Notes under the pieces: generated by a model | Seen by the model: the letters and a program-made list of their open reading frames with translations, nothing else | The model's database searches: none | Told to the model about the DNA's origin: nothing | Made by a program: the position numbers and the translations under genes | Shown here: one piece after another, positions 5,946 through 20,416 of the stretch | Position numbering within the stretch: the stretch's first letter is position 1 | How the letters are laid out: every line of letters starts with the position of its first letter | Assembly: GCA_003402745.1 (NCBI GenBank) | Contig: QQND01000024.1 | Location: forward strand, 1-37,937 | Origin: Verrucomicrobiota bacterium | GTDB taxonomy: Bacteria > Verrucomicrobiota > Verrucomicrobiia > Chthoniobacterales > Chthoniobacteraceae | Length of the DNA: 37,937 bases | Direction: 5' to 3'

Positions 5946-7463
5946 ATGGAACTTCGCTGGCTACCACCCCTTAGGCCTCTACACCCACGGCTTCACTCCC
6001 TTTTTGGCTTCGTGCTGCTGGGCATCGTCCAGTTCAGCCTGACCCCGCCCTCCCAGGCGGCGGACCCAAACGTGATCCGGAAGAGTCTGGCCCGAATCAG
6101 TAACACCTCTCAGGAGCCCAACTACCGCCAGCCTTGGCTGCCCGGAGTGACCATGAGCAGCTCCGGCACGGGCTGGGTTGTCTCCAAGAACCGGATCCTC
6201 ACGAACGCCCACGTTGTTTCCAACGCGCGCTTCCTCACCCTCGAGAAAGAGCGCGACCCCAAGAAATACATCGCAGAAGTCGAGCACGTGGCCCACGACT
6301 GCGACCTAGCCATTCTGAAAGTTCAGGATCCGACCTTTTTCGACGGTACCATCCCGCTTGATCTGGGGGGTATCCCGGACATTGAAACCGAGGTGTCTGT
6401 TTACGGCTATCCAATTGGTGGGGAACGCCTTTCTGTAACGCGAGGAGTCGTCTCCCGCGTGGACTTCCGGCCCTACGCTCATTCTGGACTGGACTCCCAT
6501 CTGACCATTCAAATCGACGCAGCCATCAACCCCGGCAACAGTGGAGGGCCGGTGCTTCAGAAGGGCAAGGTGGTGGGCGTCGCCTTTCAAGGGTTCAGCG
6601 GCGACGTCGCCCAAAACGTCGGCTACATGATCCCCACCCCAGTGATCCGCAGGTTTTTGACGGACATTTCCGACGGGACCTACGACCGCTATATGGACCT
6701 GTCGCTCACCACCTTCAATACGCTCAACCCGGCGATGCGAGCGGGACTGGGTCTCCCGAACAACGACCTGGGGGTTCTGGTTTCTTCCGTCGCCTCCGCG
6801 GGGGTCTGCCATGGTTACGTCCTGCCCGGAGACGTCATTCTAGCCGTTGACGGGCTTTCGGTGGCCAGCGACGGCACCGTGGAGCTCGAAAACGAGCGCG
6901 TTCAGATGGCGGAGGTTGCAGAGCGCAAGTTTCGCGGAGACTCCATAAAAATGCATCTTCTGCGCGCTCAAAAGGAAATGGATGTCACCGTGCCTCTGTC
7001 CAACGCTTGGCCCTTTCCGATGCAGGCCAACCAGTTTGATGTAAAGCCGACCTATGTGCTTTTCGGGGGACTGCTATTTCAACCCCTCTCGCGAAACCTC
7101 CTCAGTTCCGTGCAATTTCAGAATCCCCGATTGAATTATTTTTTCGAGGCCTTCGTTCCAAAGGAGATCTACCAAGAACACCCCGAGGTCGTCGTGCTGA
7201 GCAGCATTCTGGCTGACCCGATCAACACCTACCTCAACGAGTTCAAGGAGGGCATGGTCGAGGAAATCAACGCCGCGCCGGTGCGCACTCTGAGGGATGT
7301 TTCCGAGGCGTTCTCCAAAGCCTCAGATTTTTACGTCGTCAAATTCATTGGCAATGGCCGGCCCCTCGTTCTGGAGCGCGCGGCCGTGGAAGCCGCCCGC
7401 GAGCGCATCCGCACCCGCTACGGCCTGCAACGGGAAGAAAACCTGGAAGCCAACTCTCAGTAA
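5946..7463 (+). CDS. Deg9-like trypsin-family serine protease with PDZ domains, exported
   Basis: A 505-residue HtrA/Deg-type protease. The open frame extends to 5853, but I chose the ATG at 5946 because it places a signal peptide (hydrophobic core about 18-32, then S-Q-A-A-D) at the N terminus. The catalytic triad is intact: His89 in T-N-A-H-V-V, Asp120 in D-C-D-L-A-I-L and Ser199 in G-N-S-G-G-P. A PDZ domain follows at about 270-350. After it comes a C-terminal region with a F-G-G-L-L-F-Q-P-L-S segment, as in the third PDZ-like domain of plant Deg9/Deg2 proteases. It should cleave or guard misfolded proteins in the periplasm. It ends four bases before a paralogous gene whose product has lost the triad, so the two are almost certainly co-expressed. 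Confidence 0.9.
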   Translation: MELRWLPPLRPLHPRLHSLFGFVLLGIVQFSLTPPSQAADPNVIRKSLARISNTSQEPNYRQPWLPGVTMSSSGTGWVVSKNRILTNAHVVSNARFLTLEKERDPKKYIAEVEHVAHDCDLAILKVQDPTFFDGTIPLDLGGIPDIETEVSVYGYPIGGERLSVTRGVVSRVDFRPYAHSGLDSHLTIQIDAAINPGNSGGPVLQKGKVVGVAFQGFSGDVAQNVGYMIPTPVIRRFLTDISDGTYDRYMDLSLTTFNTLNPAMRAGLGLPNNDLGVLVSSVASAGVCHGYVLPGDVILAVDGLSVASDGTVELENERVQMAEVAERKFRGDSIKMHLLRAQKEMDVTVPLSNAWPFPMQANQFDVKPTYVLFGGLLFQPLSRNLLSSVQFQNPRLNYFFEAFVPKEIYQEHPEVVVLSSILADPINTYLNEFKEGMVEEINAAPVRTLRDVSEAFSKASDFYVVKFIGNGRPLVLERAAVEAARERIRTRYGLQREENLEANSQ

Positions 7464-7467
7464 TCCT

Positions 7468-9042
7468 ATGCGCGCCACCCCTTTTCTTCTGGCCCTTTTT
7501 TGGACCGCAACCGTCCCTTGTTTGCTCCAGGCAGCCCCTGTTTCGGCCGCCCAAGCAGCCCCTGTTTCGGCCGCCCAAGCAGCCCCTGTTTCGGCCGCCC
7601 AAGCAGCCCCTGTTTCGGCCGCCCAAGCAGCCGATACCCGAGCCGATTTTCTGCAAAATATTGTGCGGGTGACTGTGACTGCGCAACCCTACGACTTCGC
7701 TCGACCTTGGTCAAAACGCGCCCCGAGCTCGCGCAGGGCTCTGGGAACCGTTCTGGAAGGCAATCGCATTCTCGTGACTGCCGAGGTGGTGGCCAATGCG
7801 ACTTACATCGAGCTGGAAAGCCCCGATGGTGAACAGAAGCAACCCGCCAGCGTGGAATGCGTCGACTACGAGGCGGATCTGGCGCTCCTGAAGCCGGAGT
7901 CTCCGGACTTCTTCAAAACACGCCCCGGGCTTCGCTTTGCAACGCCCCAGGTGGGCGATTCCCTCAGCATTCTGCAGTTAGAGGCCAACGGAAACCCGCT
8001 TTTTTCCAAGGGACCGATGACAACGGCGGAGGTGGTCCGTTACCCAGTTGACGATTCCTCCTTTCTCGTGGGCCGTCTGAACGTGCCGCTTCAAATCCGG
8101 GAATCCACCCAGTCCCTCCCCCTGTTTAAGGAGGGAAAACTTGCCGGCGTCATGCTCCGTTATGACCCCCAGTCGAGCCTCCTCGATTTCATTCCCGCCG
8201 CTGTGGTCGAGCATTTCCTGAAGGATGCGGTCAAATCTCCCTATGAGGGTTTTCCACGGATGGGCTGTAGTTTTGCCGTCACACGCGACCCCCAGTTGAG
8301 GCGTTACCTCGGACTCAATGGCAACAACGGTGGGGTGTTGATCACGCAGCTCCTCAAAGGGGGGCCGGCGGAAAAAGGCGGGCTGCTCAAAGGCGACGTC
8401 CTGCTGGAGATTGCAGGGAACCCGATCGATTCGGACGGAAATTACCGCGACGAGACCTACGGCCGCATCTCCCTGGGGCATCTGGTTTGCACGAAACACT
8501 TTGAAGGCGAAAAGGTGAAAGTCCGCCTGCTGCGCGACGGCAAGCCCGTGGAAGCGGAAGTCCCCGTGGCCCGGCGGCATCCTGAAAAGTACCTGAGCGA
8601 GCCCTACATCATCGACCGCGCTCCCAACTACTACGTGCTGGGCGGGTTGATCCTGCAGGAACTGTCCAGGCAGTACCTCAAGGAATTCGGGACTGACTGG
8701 CCGCGCAAAGCGCCCATGGACTTGGTGAATATCGACCGAACCCAGGGGGAAATTGATGGGGAAGTCCGCCAGCGCGTTGTCGTTCTAAGCCGCGTCCTGC
8801 CCTCCGATGTGACCGTGGGTTACGAGGATCTGAGGCACCTTGTCCTGAAGTCGGTCAACGGCCAGGCCATCGGCAGCCTTTCAGATGTGCCCGAGGCGCT
8901 TTCTAAATCGGAGCGGGGGGTACACCGGCTGGAATTCCTAAGCGACCCGAGCGTCATTTTTCTAGATGCGAAGGCCGTCGAAGCCGCGGGACCTTCTTTG
9001 CAGCGGAGCTACGGACTGCCCGCGCTCAGCCGGCTGCAGTGA
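7468..9042 (+). CDS. Deg9-like pseudoprotease with PDZ domains, exported
   Basis: A 524-residue paralogue of the preceding protease, with its ATG four bases after that gene's stop. It has a signal peptide (residues about 1-22), then four A-A-P-V-S-A-A-Q repeats, a trypsin-like fold, a PDZ domain around 290-390 and the C-terminal domain marked by L-G-G-L-I-L-Q-E-L-S. Aligned with its neighbour, the catalytic His is replaced by Glu106 (V-T-A-E-V-V) and the catalytic Ser by Gln215 (S-T-Q-S-L-P instead of G-N-S-G-G-P). The Asp137 region is kept (E-A-D-L-A-L-L). It should therefore have no serine-protease activity. A scaffold, substrate-adaptor or regulatory role for the active partner is an inference. 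The open reading frame extends upstream to 7297, but that start would lie inside the first gene. Confidence 0.88.
   Translation: MRATPFLLALFWTATVPCLLQAAPVSAAQAAPVSAAQAAPVSAAQAAPVSAAQAADTRADFLQNIVRVTVTAQPYDFARPWSKRAPSSRRALGTVLEGNRILVTAEVVANATYIELESPDGEQKQPASVECVDYEADLALLKPESPDFFKTRPGLRFATPQVGDSLSILQLEANGNPLFSKGPMTTAEVVRYPVDDSSFLVGRLNVPLQIRESTQSLPLFKEGKLAGVMLRYDPQSSLLDFIPAAVVEHFLKDAVKSPYEGFPRMGCSFAVTRDPQLRRYLGLNGNNGGVLITQLLKGGPAEKGGLLKGDVLLEIAGNPIDSDGNYRDETYGRISLGHLVCTKHFEGEKVKVRLLRDGKPVEAEVPVARRHPEKYLSEPYIIDRAPNYYVLGGLILQELSRQYLKEFGTDWPRKAPMDLVNIDRTQGEIDGEVRQRVVVLSRVLPSDVTVGYEDLRHLVLKSVNGQAIGSLSDVPEALSKSERGVHRLEFLSDPSVIFLDAKAVEAAGPSLQRSYGLPALSRLQ
7531..7626 (+). repeat. four perfect 24-bp tandem repeats encoding A-A-P-V-S-A-A-Q
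   Basis: The unit GCAGCCCCTG followed by TTTCGGCCGCCCAA is repeated four times with no mismatch (7531-7554, 7555-7578, 7579-7602, 7603-7626). It encodes a low-complexity linker just after the signal peptide of the pseudoprotease. Perfect identity points to recent slippage, so copy number may vary between strains without breaking the frame. Confidence 0.95.
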
Positions 9043-16699: not shown

Positions 16700-19144
16700 G
16701 TGTCAAACCTTCCTCCATCCCTTCGAAACGTTCTTCTGATTTCAGCCCTGGCATTGTCGGCGCGTCTCGATGCATCTGCTGCGCGAGTGGATTCCGCCAA
16801 GCGGTTTTTGGAAAAACACTGCATCGCTTGCCATGGCGAGGACGAGCAGAAGGGGGGCTTGCGCCTCGACACGATCCCCTTCGAGCCTGCCAAATTAGAA
16901 AATACTCAGATGTGGGAACAAGTGTTCCAACGCGTCGCCGACTTGGAAATGCCGCCGAAAAAAAAGGCCAGACCGTCGGAAGCAGAGCAGCATGATTTTC
17001 TCAAGACGCTAAATGACCGTTTGGTCGCAGCAGACCTCAAAAGACAAACAGGCGAGGGGCGGGTGGTATTGCGTCGTTTAAACCGCAATGAGTACCAAAA
17101 CACCCTGTTTGAACTGCTCGGAGTGGAAACAGACCTCAAGAGCCTTCTTCCAGAAGATGCACAATCTCTTGGTTTTGATAATGTCGGCGAGGCGCTGAAT
17201 GTGTCTGCGATCTTGATGGAGCGTTATGTGGAAGCGGCGGATGCAGCGCTTGATGCCGTCTTGGTAAAGGGCAAGAGGCCTGAGTGCCAAAAATGGCACC
17301 TCTCGATGATGCCGAACAACATCCGGAAACCGGAGACTAATTCCGGAAAATGGGATTATCGGCTGGCTTCCGGCGTCCGTGTGCTTCCGGACGAGACGTT
17401 CATTTTTTTCAATTCCATGTTTCAACCAATGCGACTGGAGAAGTTCCAAGCGCCTGTTGCGGGGCATTACAAATTTCGCGTGAGCGCCTATGCGGCGCAA
17501 AGCGCAGGACACAAGCTCAGCTTCGCTTTGTATGCAGGCTCCTTTGATCCCAAGAGTCTGAACACGCATTTGGTGGGACATTTCGATGTACCTCCGGAGG
17601 AACCCACGGTCATTGAGTTCACAGACCCTCTGCCTTTACGCGGGAGCATCCGACCTCTGCCCTATCGATTGGGACAGCACAGCATCAATACCCCGGAATT
17701 GGTTGAGGCTTATCAGGGGCCGGGAATTGCCATCCAGTGGGTCGAGATCGAAGGTCCGCTCATCGAAGAATGGCCCCCGAGAGGGTACCAGCGTCTTCTG
17801 GGAGACTTGGAGTTGGAAAAGGGGCAGCTCGAAGACGCTGAAAAAGCGTTGCGGCGCATCCTTCCTGCGGCTTTTCGAAGACCTGTCGAGGACGATGAAG
17901 CGCAGCCTTTCATCGATCTTGTGAGTGCTGAGTTGAAGGCCGGGAAAAAATTTGAGGATGCGTTTCGAGGCGGCATCAAGGCGGTTCTTTGTTCGCCTGA
18001 TTTCCTGTTTTTAAAAGAGGTCTCACCCTCTGAAAATCCGCTCAAACAAAAAAAACGCGCGAGCTCCACTCGGCTCCCCCTCGCAGACTTCGCCCTGGCT
18101 TCCCGCCTGAGTTACTTTTTGTGGTCCTCGCCGCCGGATGACACGCTGTTTGAAATCGCCAAACGCGGCACGCTGCGCGACGGCGCCACGCTGCATTCGC
18201 AGGTGGAGCGGATGCTTTCCGATGCCAAGGCGCAGCGCTTCGTGTCCAATTTCACCGGCCAATGGCTCGGACTTAGAAACATCGAGCTGACCACACCCGA
18301 CAAGAAGTTGTACCCAGAATATGACGACGCGTTGCAGGAGGCCATGCTCAAGGAGACTCAGTTGTTTTTTGCCGAGGTGCTCCACAACGACCTGCCCGTG
18401 ACTCACTTTATCGACTCGGACTTCACCATGCTCAACGAGCGCATCGCCAAGCACTACGGCATCTCCGGAGTGGATGGGCAAAATTTCCGCAAGGTTTCCT
18501 TGGATCCCGCATTTCACCGGGGTGGGCTGCTGGGGCAGGCAGCCATTTTAAAAGTAACGGCCAATGGCACAAACACCTCGCCCATCATCCGCGGAAACTG
18601 GGTGTTGAAAAATATCCTCGGCAAACCGGTGAATCCGCCTCCTCCGAATATCCCGGCTATTGAACCTGACATCCGCGGTGCAAAATCGATCCGGGAACAG
18701 ATTGCAAAACATCGCGAACTCGCAAGCTGTGCGGGGTGCCATGACCGGATGGATCCCTTGGGGTTGGCGTTGGAAAATTACGATGTGATCGGAGGCTGGC
18801 GTGAAGCCTACCGTTCAACCGGCGAGGGCAAGAACGCAACCACTGAGGTCGAAGGAAGACGCGTGCAGTACAAAATCGGACTGCCTGTCGATGCGTCCGG
18901 AGTGCTTCAAGACGGCCGCTCTTTTCAAACCCTTGCGGAACTCAAAAGCCTGCTGTTTTCCGAGGGATCCCAGGTGGCCCAATGCCTCGGCGAGAAGCTT
19001 CTTGTCTATTCAACAGGAGGCCCGCCGGGATTTGCTGACAAAATGGAATTACGTGAAATCATCCATCGGGCGGGAGGATCGGGCCTGGGCCTGCGCCGAC
19101 TCATCCACGAAATCGTCCAGAGCCAGGCTTTCCTCAACAAATAA
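16700..19144 (+). CDS. DUF1592 family protein with cytochrome-c heme site (planctomycete-type)
   Basis: An 814-residue exported protein starting with GTG and a signal peptide (about 1-27). A c-type heme motif C-I-A-C-H at 41-45 begins the planctomycete cytochrome-c domain. The family blocks follow in the usual order: a DUF1587-like part (R-R-L-N-R-N-E-Y-Q-N-T-L), a DUF1595 part (about 385-440, L-P-A-A-F-R-R-P-V), DUF1592 (about 455-580, L-S-Y-F-L-W-S-S-P-P-D), DUF1588 with a second C-x-x-C-H (C677-A-G-C-H) and D-P-L-G-L-A-L-E-N-Y-D, and a DUF1585 end. The paired DUF1552 gene starts ten bases downstream, the usual partnership. The proteins are thought to act in extracytoplasmic oxidation, probably of polysaccharide or sugar compounds, but no reaction has been settled. 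Confidence 0.92.
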   Translation: MSNLPPSLRNVLLISALALSARLDASAARVDSAKRFLEKHCIACHGEDEQKGGLRLDTIPFEPAKLENTQMWEQVFQRVADLEMPPKKKARPSEAEQHDFLKTLNDRLVAADLKRQTGEGRVVLRRLNRNEYQNTLFELLGVETDLKSLLPEDAQSLGFDNVGEALNVSAILMERYVEAADAALDAVLVKGKRPECQKWHLSMMPNNIRKPETNSGKWDYRLASGVRVLPDETFIFFNSMFQPMRLEKFQAPVAGHYKFRVSAYAAQSAGHKLSFALYAGSFDPKSLNTHLVGHFDVPPEEPTVIEFTDPLPLRGSIRPLPYRLGQHSINTPELVEAYQGPGIAIQWVEIEGPLIEEWPPRGYQRLLGDLELEKGQLEDAEKALRRILPAAFRRPVEDDEAQPFIDLVSAELKAGKKFEDAFRGGIKAVLCSPDFLFLKEVSPSENPLKQKKRASSTRLPLADFALASRLSYFLWSSPPDDTLFEIAKRGTLRDGATLHSQVERMLSDAKAQRFVSNFTGQWLGLRNIELTTPDKKLYPEYDDALQEAMLKETQLFFAEVLHNDLPVTHFIDSDFTMLNERIAKHYGISGVDGQNFRKVSLDPAFHRGGLLGQAAILKVTANGTNTSPIIRGNWVLKNILGKPVNPPPPNIPAIEPDIRGAKSIREQIAKHRELASCAGCHDRMDPLGLALENYDVIGGWREAYRSTGEGKNATTEVEGRRVQYKIGLPVDASGVLQDGRSFQTLAELKSLLFSEGSQVAQCLGEKLLVYSTGGPPGFADKMELREIIHRAGGSGLGLRRLIHEIVQSQAFLNK

Positions 19145-19153
19145 CCCCCATTT

Positions 19154-20416
19154 ATGCGAAACCTCCCGCTCTCTCGCCGCGCCCTCCTCAAGGGGGTTGG
19201 AGTCACTCTTGGACTTCCCTTTTTGGAGGCCCTCCACGCAGTCGCACCCGCCTCTGTGTTGAACCCGCGCAGGCGGCGGATGGTGTGCATCATGACCCCC
19301 CTTGGTGTGCATTCTGAAAACCTGTTTCCGCAGCAAACAGGGCGCGACTACTCTCCAAGCCCCTACCTCGCGGAGTTGGGAGAATTATGCAGCCACGTGA
19401 CTGTCTTCAGTGGGCTGTCCCATCCAGAGGTAGACGGCGGGCATGATTCGGAGCGCTCGTTTTTGACCGCGGCTCCACACCCGGGTCAGGCGAGTTTCCG
19501 AAACTCCATTTCAGTAGATCAGGTTGCCGCGGAACAACTGGGGGCAGACACGCGGCACGCAAGCCTTGTGCTCAACACCATGGGGGGAAGCATTTCGTGG
19601 GCGCGGGGCGGCGTGCAGATTCCTGGAGAGGGAAGTCCGGGGCGGTTATTCGCAAAGTTGTTTCTCACCGGCAGCCAAAAAGAGATGGAGGTGCAGCTCA
19701 ACAGGCTGAGGCAGGGGAAAAGCGTGCTGGATACAGTCAACGAGCAGGCAAAGCGCTTTGCCTCCGGCTTGGGGCAGCGTGACCGGGAGAAACTGGATGA
19801 ATACTTCACAGGAGTTCGGGAAGTTGAGGAACGTTTTAAAAAGGCGGAGGCGTGGGCAAAGCAACCCAAGCCCGCCGTCGAAGCCAAGCAACCCCTCGAC
19901 ATTCAGGATAATGCGGACCTCATCGGACGCACGCGCCTGATGTATGACGTGATGGGTTTGGCCCTCGAAACCGACTCCACACGCATCATCACGCTCCAAC
20001 TTCAGGGCACTGGGCTGGTGGTTCCGATCGAAGGAGTCACCATGGATCACCACAACCTTTCGCACCACGGAAAGGACCCGGAAAAATTAAAGCAGCTCGC
20101 ATTGGTGGAGGGTGCCGAGTTTAAGGCGCTTGGAGATTTTTTGAAGCGGCTTTCGGAGCGGCAGGAAGAAGGCGAAACGCTGCTTGAAAAAACAATGGTT
20201 CTTTTTGGCAGCAATCTCGGAAACGCCGCGAGCCACGATACCAAGAACATGCCGATCATCCTGGCAGGCGGCGGCTTCAACCATGGACAGCATCTCGGTT
20301 TTGATGCCGCAAAACCACCGCCCCTCGGAAACCTCTACGTCCAGATGCTTCAACAATTGGGGCTTCCCGTGGACACGTTTGCCTCAGGAAAAAGCTCCAT
20401 CCCCGGCTTCCACTAA
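19154..20416 (+). CDS. DUF1552 family protein, Tat-exported
   Basis: A 420-residue partner of the DUF1592 cytochrome gene, ten bases downstream. It starts with a twin-arginine-like signal (S-R-R-A-L-L-K-G-V-G-V-T-L-G-L-P-F), then M-V-C-I-M-T-P-L-G-V-H, G-G-H-D-S-E-R-S-F and G-S-I-S-W. The DUF1552 C-terminal half contains H-H-N-L-S-H-H-G and G-S-N-L-G-N-A-A-S-H-D with several conserved His, Asp and Asn that could bind metal. DUF1552 and the related DUF1501 belong to an alkaline-phosphatase/sulfatase-like fold; its specific function is unknown. Tat export suggests folding and perhaps cofactor insertion before transport. Confidence 0.9.
   Translation: MRNLPLSRRALLKGVGVTLGLPFLEALHAVAPASVLNPRRRRMVCIMTPLGVHSENLFPQQTGRDYSPSPYLAELGELCSHVTVFSGLSHPEVDGGHDSERSFLTAAPHPGQASFRNSISVDQVAAEQLGADTRHASLVLNTMGGSISWARGGVQIPGEGSPGRLFAKLFLTGSQKEMEVQLNRLRQGKSVLDTVNEQAKRFASGLGQRDREKLDEYFTGVREVEERFKKAEAWAKQPKPAVEAKQPLDIQDNADLIGRTRLMYDVMGLALETDSTRIITLQLQGTGLVVPIEGVTMDHHNLSHHGKDPEKLKQLALVEGAEFKALGDFLKRLSERQEEGETLLEKTMVLFGSNLGNAASHDTKNMPIILAGGGFNHGQHLGFDAAKPPPLGNLYVQMLQQLGLPVDTFASGKSSIPGFH

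Follow-up and report, generated by a model that had tools for sequence, protein, structure and literature searches.

Introduction

HtrA proteases typically form trimer-based assemblies, and pseudoproteases of this family are known in a handful of cases. Nma111 of yeast is a Deg7-like double protease in which an active Deg unit is fused to a degenerate one. In the ClpP/ClpR systems of cyanobacteria and plastids, one proteolytic assembly combines active with inactive paralogues, which are often encoded together; these proteins have an unrelated fold, are cytoplasmic and ATP-dependent, and serve here as an analogy only. For the active plant proteases Deg9 and Deg2, we know of no description that includes a dead partner gene.

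In plant Deg7, which combines an active with a degenerate Deg unit, each unit carries two PDZ domains and the units are thought to be derived from a duplication; the inactive domain of AtDeg7 participates in trimerisation (PMC3473262). In magnetotactic bacteria, the active HtrA MamE and the pseudo-HtrA MamO function in one process in which the pseudoprotease has been retained; proteolysis by MamE requires the presence of MamO, not the MamO triad (PMC4794232). MamO carries a TauE-like transporter domain, binds metal through a di-histidine motif and belongs to a set of pseudoproteases with separate origins in the magnetotactic groups (PMC4794232).

An active protease and a pseudoprotease of Deg9 type had been proposed at the present locus from its sequence alone, a reading supported by the analysis reported here. 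The accompanying statement that no system of this kind had been described does not stand, MamE/MamO (PMC4794232) and Deg7 (PMC3473262) being precedents. A combination of active and dead HtrA proteins is a known theme; no description of this Deg9-type pair or of its spread across Verrucomicrobiota was found in the literature searched, most subscription papers lying outside the reach of that search.

Gene A encodes a predicted protease and gene B its pseudoprotease paralogue

The window, that is, the whole stretch of 37,937 nucleotides that was analysed, belongs to a genome of 2.79 Mb (69% complete). Among named relatives the nearest are Chthoniobacter flavus Ellin428 and assemblies of Chthoniobacteraceae/Spartobacteria, which places the window in Chthoniobacterales (Verrucomicrobiota). 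Genes A and B are arranged head to tail on the + strand with 4 bases between them, and the ORF listing and translations reproduced exactly the coordinates of the sequence-only reading (Table 1). The stop codon of A occupies 7461-7463 and B starts at 7468; hence these are two separate genes and not one polypeptide.

Pfam matches to Trypsin_2 (1.1e-24) and PDZ_3 (2.5e-22) were obtained for A, and its best solved relatives were Deg2 (4fln, 7.9e-77) and Deg9 (5il9, 1.3e-68). The protease, PDZ and PDZ_3 architecture was seen in 50/50 A homologues checked, PDZ1 being weak in the A protein of the window. The AlphaFold2 model of A had a pLDDT of 80.7 and a pTM of 0.71. The full triad attributed earlier to the first protein (His89, Asp120, Ser199) is present. 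Judged by triad, GNSGGP motif and architecture, A is a Deg9/Deg2-type (S1C) protease.

In B, the Pfam scan matched PDZ_2 and PDZ_3 and gave no trypsin-family match. Pfam PDZ models fit PDZ1 of B better than PDZ1 of A, that of B being the more canonical. PDZ domains were matched in 57/57 B homologues, Trypsin_2 in 7/57. By sequence, the solved relatives closest to B are again plant Deg2 and Deg9, which share the protease, PDZ and PDZ_3 domains; these are active proteases, whereas B is without their triad. The replacement of His by Glu106 and of Ser by Gln215, read earlier from the sequence, was confirmed by alignment to A, Q215 standing three residues before a Pro common to A and B, like Ser in A.

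The N termini of both proteins are signal-peptide-like (judged by eye), from which we infer export of A and B to the periplasm. In Deg7, a eukaryotic polypeptide, the two units are fused; A and B are separately encoded bacterial proteins, each with its own signal-peptide-like start. As in MamE/MamO, an active HtrA is genetically linked to a pseudo-HtrA, but B has PDZ domains where MamO has its TauE-like domain: the Pfam scan detected no TauE domain in B. B gave no match to the MamO family model, and A scored 38.5 against a cut-off of 800. The linker between the signal peptide and the pseudoprotease domain of B contains a 24-bp tandem repeat; its APVSAAQA unit was not found by pattern search in four near relatives, and the repeat appears to be a recent expansion, perhaps variable in length.

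Table 1. Coordinates of genes A and B and of their features in the window.
Feature	Position	Strand	Basis
Gene A, predicted Deg9/Deg2-type HtrA serine protease (protease, PDZ, PDZ_3), 505 aa, ATG/TAA	5946..7463	+	ORF, translation, Pfam, solved relatives
Trypsin_2 core of A, residues 74-212	6165..6581	+	Pfam
Catalytic His89 codon of A, in TNAHVV	6210..6212	+	Alignment; His in 171/171 A sequences
Catalytic Asp120 codon of A, in DCDLAIL	6303..6305	+	Alignment; Asp in 171/171 A sequences
Catalytic Ser199 codon of A, in NPGNSGGP	6540..6542	+	Alignment; GNSGG in 171/171 A sequences
PDZ1 of A, weak match (23.9 bits, under the 27-bit cut-off)	6744..6998	+	Pfam
PDZ_3 (PF17815) of A	7026..7433	+	Pfam
Gene B, predicted pseudoprotease paralogue of A, 524 aa, ATG/TGA	7468..9042	+	ORF, translation, Pfam, AlphaFold2, Foldseek
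24-bp tandem repeat, 4.4 copies, 98% matches, APVSAAQA units	7527..7632	+	Linker between B signal peptide and pseudoprotease domain
Pseudoprotease domain in B (residues ~60-256)	7645..8235	+	Fold, alignment to A
Glu106 codon of B (His position), in ILVTAEVV	7783..7785	+	Gap-free alignment to A around E106
Asp137 codon of B (Asp position)	7876..7878	+	Alignment to A
Gln215 codon of B (Ser position)	8110..8112	+	Alignment to A
PDZ1 of B, 43.6 bits, above cut-off	8254..8568	+	Pfam
PDZ_3 (PF17815) of B	8608..9021	+	Pfam

The catalytic triad is incomplete in every B homologue sampled

The residues at the triad positions were compared in 319 distinct sequences, 171 of A and 148 of B. His, Asp, Ser and the GNSGG motif were present in 171/171 A sequences, while neither the full triad nor GNSGG was found in any B sequence (0/148 for each). 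The His position of B is taken by Glu in 60, Asp in 56 and Gln in 12 sequences (together 128 of 148), and the Ser position, counted back from the shared Pro, by Phe or Tyr in 104/136. One B sequence has His at the His position, the rest of the triad being absent; two keep Ser at the Ser position, yet are without His and Asp. The Asp region, PDZ domain and C-terminal domain of B had all been described as kept. This holds for PDZ and PDZ_3; the Asp itself is mostly not kept, since Asn stands at this position in 131/148 sequences and Asp in 10/148, D137 being confined to the window and a few relatives. No B with a regained triad or a generally broken gene was seen, an outcome in favour of the sequence-only reading.

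The fold of B is predicted to be preserved

An AlphaFold2 model of B, made from 57 rows taken from the window and related loci, had a pLDDT of 87.7 and a pTM of 0.82, with low confidence only in the first 47 residues. The best Foldseek matches of this model were Deg2/Deg9 structures (5ilb and 5il9), with TM scores of about 0.80 (query) and 0.90 (target). B is thus confidently predicted to retain the Deg9 fold, and it combines the architecture and fold of Deg9/Deg2-type HtrA (S1C) proteins with the absence of their catalytic triad.

Over the whole phylum, conservation in B is highest at P80-W81, common to A, and at residues within PDZ1 and PDZ_3, and the former active site is variable. Many invariant positions are specific to B in the conservation analysis, and at the level of the order a polar set (D133, N137, Q170, E172, R203, Q209, R211) is common to the B sequences. 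A B-specific DxDGNYxD stretch in PDZ1 (residues 321-328, window 8428-8451), in which D321 and G324 are nearly invariant phylum-wide, resembles a metal-binding loop.

Genes A and B adjoin across much of the phylum

Whether the two genes always adjoin was a question left by the sequence-only reading. B lies directly after A on the same strand at 170/175 B loci with room to tell, so the arrangement is far beyond chance and the pair is adjoining across the phylum. At one of the five exceptions (L123) A is about 2.6 kb upstream; at the other four, which belong to G038, a genome of the order, and to three genomes of one genus (g60), A is elsewhere in the genome. Within the order, nearly every genome sampled contains a B homologue (40-88% identity), with A adjoining. 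For the rest of the phylum 80 loci were fetched, picked among the stronger matches of a 289-genome search and hence no census; B was present in 53 of these and an A-type gene only in 27. A local oddity of the window genome is rejected by the B homologues and the pairing across relatives.

The neighbouring genes YchF, GlpX, LpxD, Skp and BamA are kept mainly within the genus, YchF sporadically beyond, and the A-B pair therefore persists while its surroundings change. In Chthoniobacter flavus, the stop codon of A has one base in common with the codon at which B probably starts. Since one lineage (the 27 loci) has A alone and the genes are apart in four genomes, A does not always need B.

Some individual loci differ from this arrangement or from their annotation. 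In genome G044 of the same order (L085, G044:C187), A occurs without B in the 2.4 kb downstream, on a contig of 4.2 kb. At L064 (G023:C125) two ORFs (373 and 151 aa) stand in place of A beside an intact B, through an assembly error or a real frameshift. A record titled Desulfobacteraceae (L167, JAUWMR010000046.1) carries a typical A-B pair of Chthoniobacterales and is probably a misnamed assembly.

B has a single origin and is under purifying selection

A phylogeny of 178 sequences placed B on one side of a branch with an SH-aLRT of 100, and B was again a single clade (SH-aLRT 100) when a third Deg9-like paralogue was used as outgroup. Independent losses of catalysis in many lineages are ruled out by this single clade, and B differs here from the MamO pseudoproteases with their separate origins. 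The sequences indicate that A and B arose from an old duplication of a Deg9/Deg2-type protease gene. Support is poor for the deep branching among the A, A-alone and B groups, and the A-alone lineage either lost B or never had it. The third paralogue, with GNSGG intact, forms a clade separate from A and B and occurs in two families of the phylum (L089, L090, L091, L286-L292).

The A and B subtrees contain largely identical groups, with pair distances correlated at r = 0.92, a value that shared descent alone would give. Covariation between the two proteins was analysed in 136 pairs (Neff about 91); the true pairing exceeded near-neighbour shuffles, as shared descent predicts, and within-protein pairs were not distinct. 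The two proteins share about 30% identity, and B has evolved about 1.6 times faster than A.

The dN/dS ratio of the second gene had been proposed as a check on its status. Against near relatives it was 0.034-0.15 for B as a whole, 0.02-0.13 within the pseudoprotease domain and 0.03-0.10 for A, values which are rough because many comparisons were saturated at synonymous sites; the two least diverged pairs agree, with 0.06-0.09 for B and 0.04 for A. B is thus under strong purifying selection (about 0.03-0.15).

Possible roles of the pseudoprotease

Because the genes have stayed together through much of Verrucomicrobiota, the results suggest that the dead copy B still has a real job, probably in helping or controlling A. 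We put at about even the chance that B is a non-catalytic subunit in Deg-type oligomers of A, giving them PDZ-based client binding or control; this reading draws on the tight gene linkage and the trimer-based assembly of HtrA proteins, together with the Deg7 precedent (PMC3473262). After duplication of the gene for a Deg9/Deg2-type periplasmic protease, catalysis would have been retained by A, and the active site of B would have been lost through change of His to Glu/Asp/Gln, of Asp to Asn and of the Ser loop to an SFT/SYT motif containing an aromatic residue, with the fold and both PDZ domains kept. B would then join A in trimer-based assemblies, bind clients or peptide signals through its more canonical PDZ1, and set the number of active sites per assembly and what reaches those sites. 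As a counterpoint, a physical interaction of MamE and MamO was not detected (PMC4794232). The wider proposal of a phylum-wide machine, in which active and always-dead Deg9-type subunits occupy one hetero-oligomer and the dead one recognises clients and limits active sites, is held more tentatively, at somewhat below an even chance. Such a hetero-oligomer, if true, would be a periplasmic, ATP-independent counterpart of ClpP/ClpR.

The strong divergence of B from A (about 30% identity), its roughly 1.6 times faster evolution, B-specific invariant positions that could form an interface of its own, and the four genomes with A and B unlinked would also fit a periplasmic chaperone or PDZ scaffold in its own right, homo-oligomeric and co-expressed with A yet outside its assembly. 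We consider this unlikely, though worth keeping in view; the near-universal A to B adjacency and the stop/start overlap in C. flavus better suit a stoichiometric partner. It is rather improbable that B regulates A without a stable subunit role, as a MamO-like activator or inhibitor acting, for example, via the PDZ domains of A or by competition for clients. MamO is needed for MamE proteolysis though no interaction was found (PMC4794232), and the single gene pair and the compartment probably common to A and B would suit such control; activation by MamO, however, requires the TauE domain, which B is without.

That the old active site of B has acquired a new activity, such as metal binding or another catalytic group, is very unlikely. 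The polar set common at the order level and the conversion of the pseudo-HtrA MamO into a metal binder (PMC4794232) point towards it, but most of this set is not conserved phylum-wide and the old His and Ser positions vary, so no common new centre is apparent in B; a new common catalytic centre is unsupported across the phylum by the conservation analysis. That B is merely a decaying duplicate can hardly be credited. It has lost its catalytic residues, but the clade is old and spread over the phylum, its main matches are full-length without internal stops, dN/dS is about 0.03-0.15 and the predicted fold is confident. Decay is rejected by dN/dS, age and integrity, and the argument of the sequence-only reading against it is borne out by the phylum-wide old clade, low dN/dS and intact ORFs.

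A pair of single origin, kept through much of the phylum and present in the cultured Chthoniobacter flavus Ellin428, offers a natural sequence series and a tractable system in which the role of a dead protease subunit in cell-envelope protein quality control can be addressed. Such a pair would also mean that many serine-protease- or PDZ-like genes in Verrucomicrobiota are non-catalytic partners.

Other genes of the window

Positions 1-2787 of the window hold the gene of an MBG_2 repeat protein, which contains a 240-bp tandem DNA repeat (94% matches), and after it a ShlB/FhaC-type transporter gene; this arrangement resembles the final part of a two-partner secretion system. At 16700-20416, genes of the PSD/PSCyt (DUF1592, DUF1588) and HXXSHH (DUF1552) families stand side by side.
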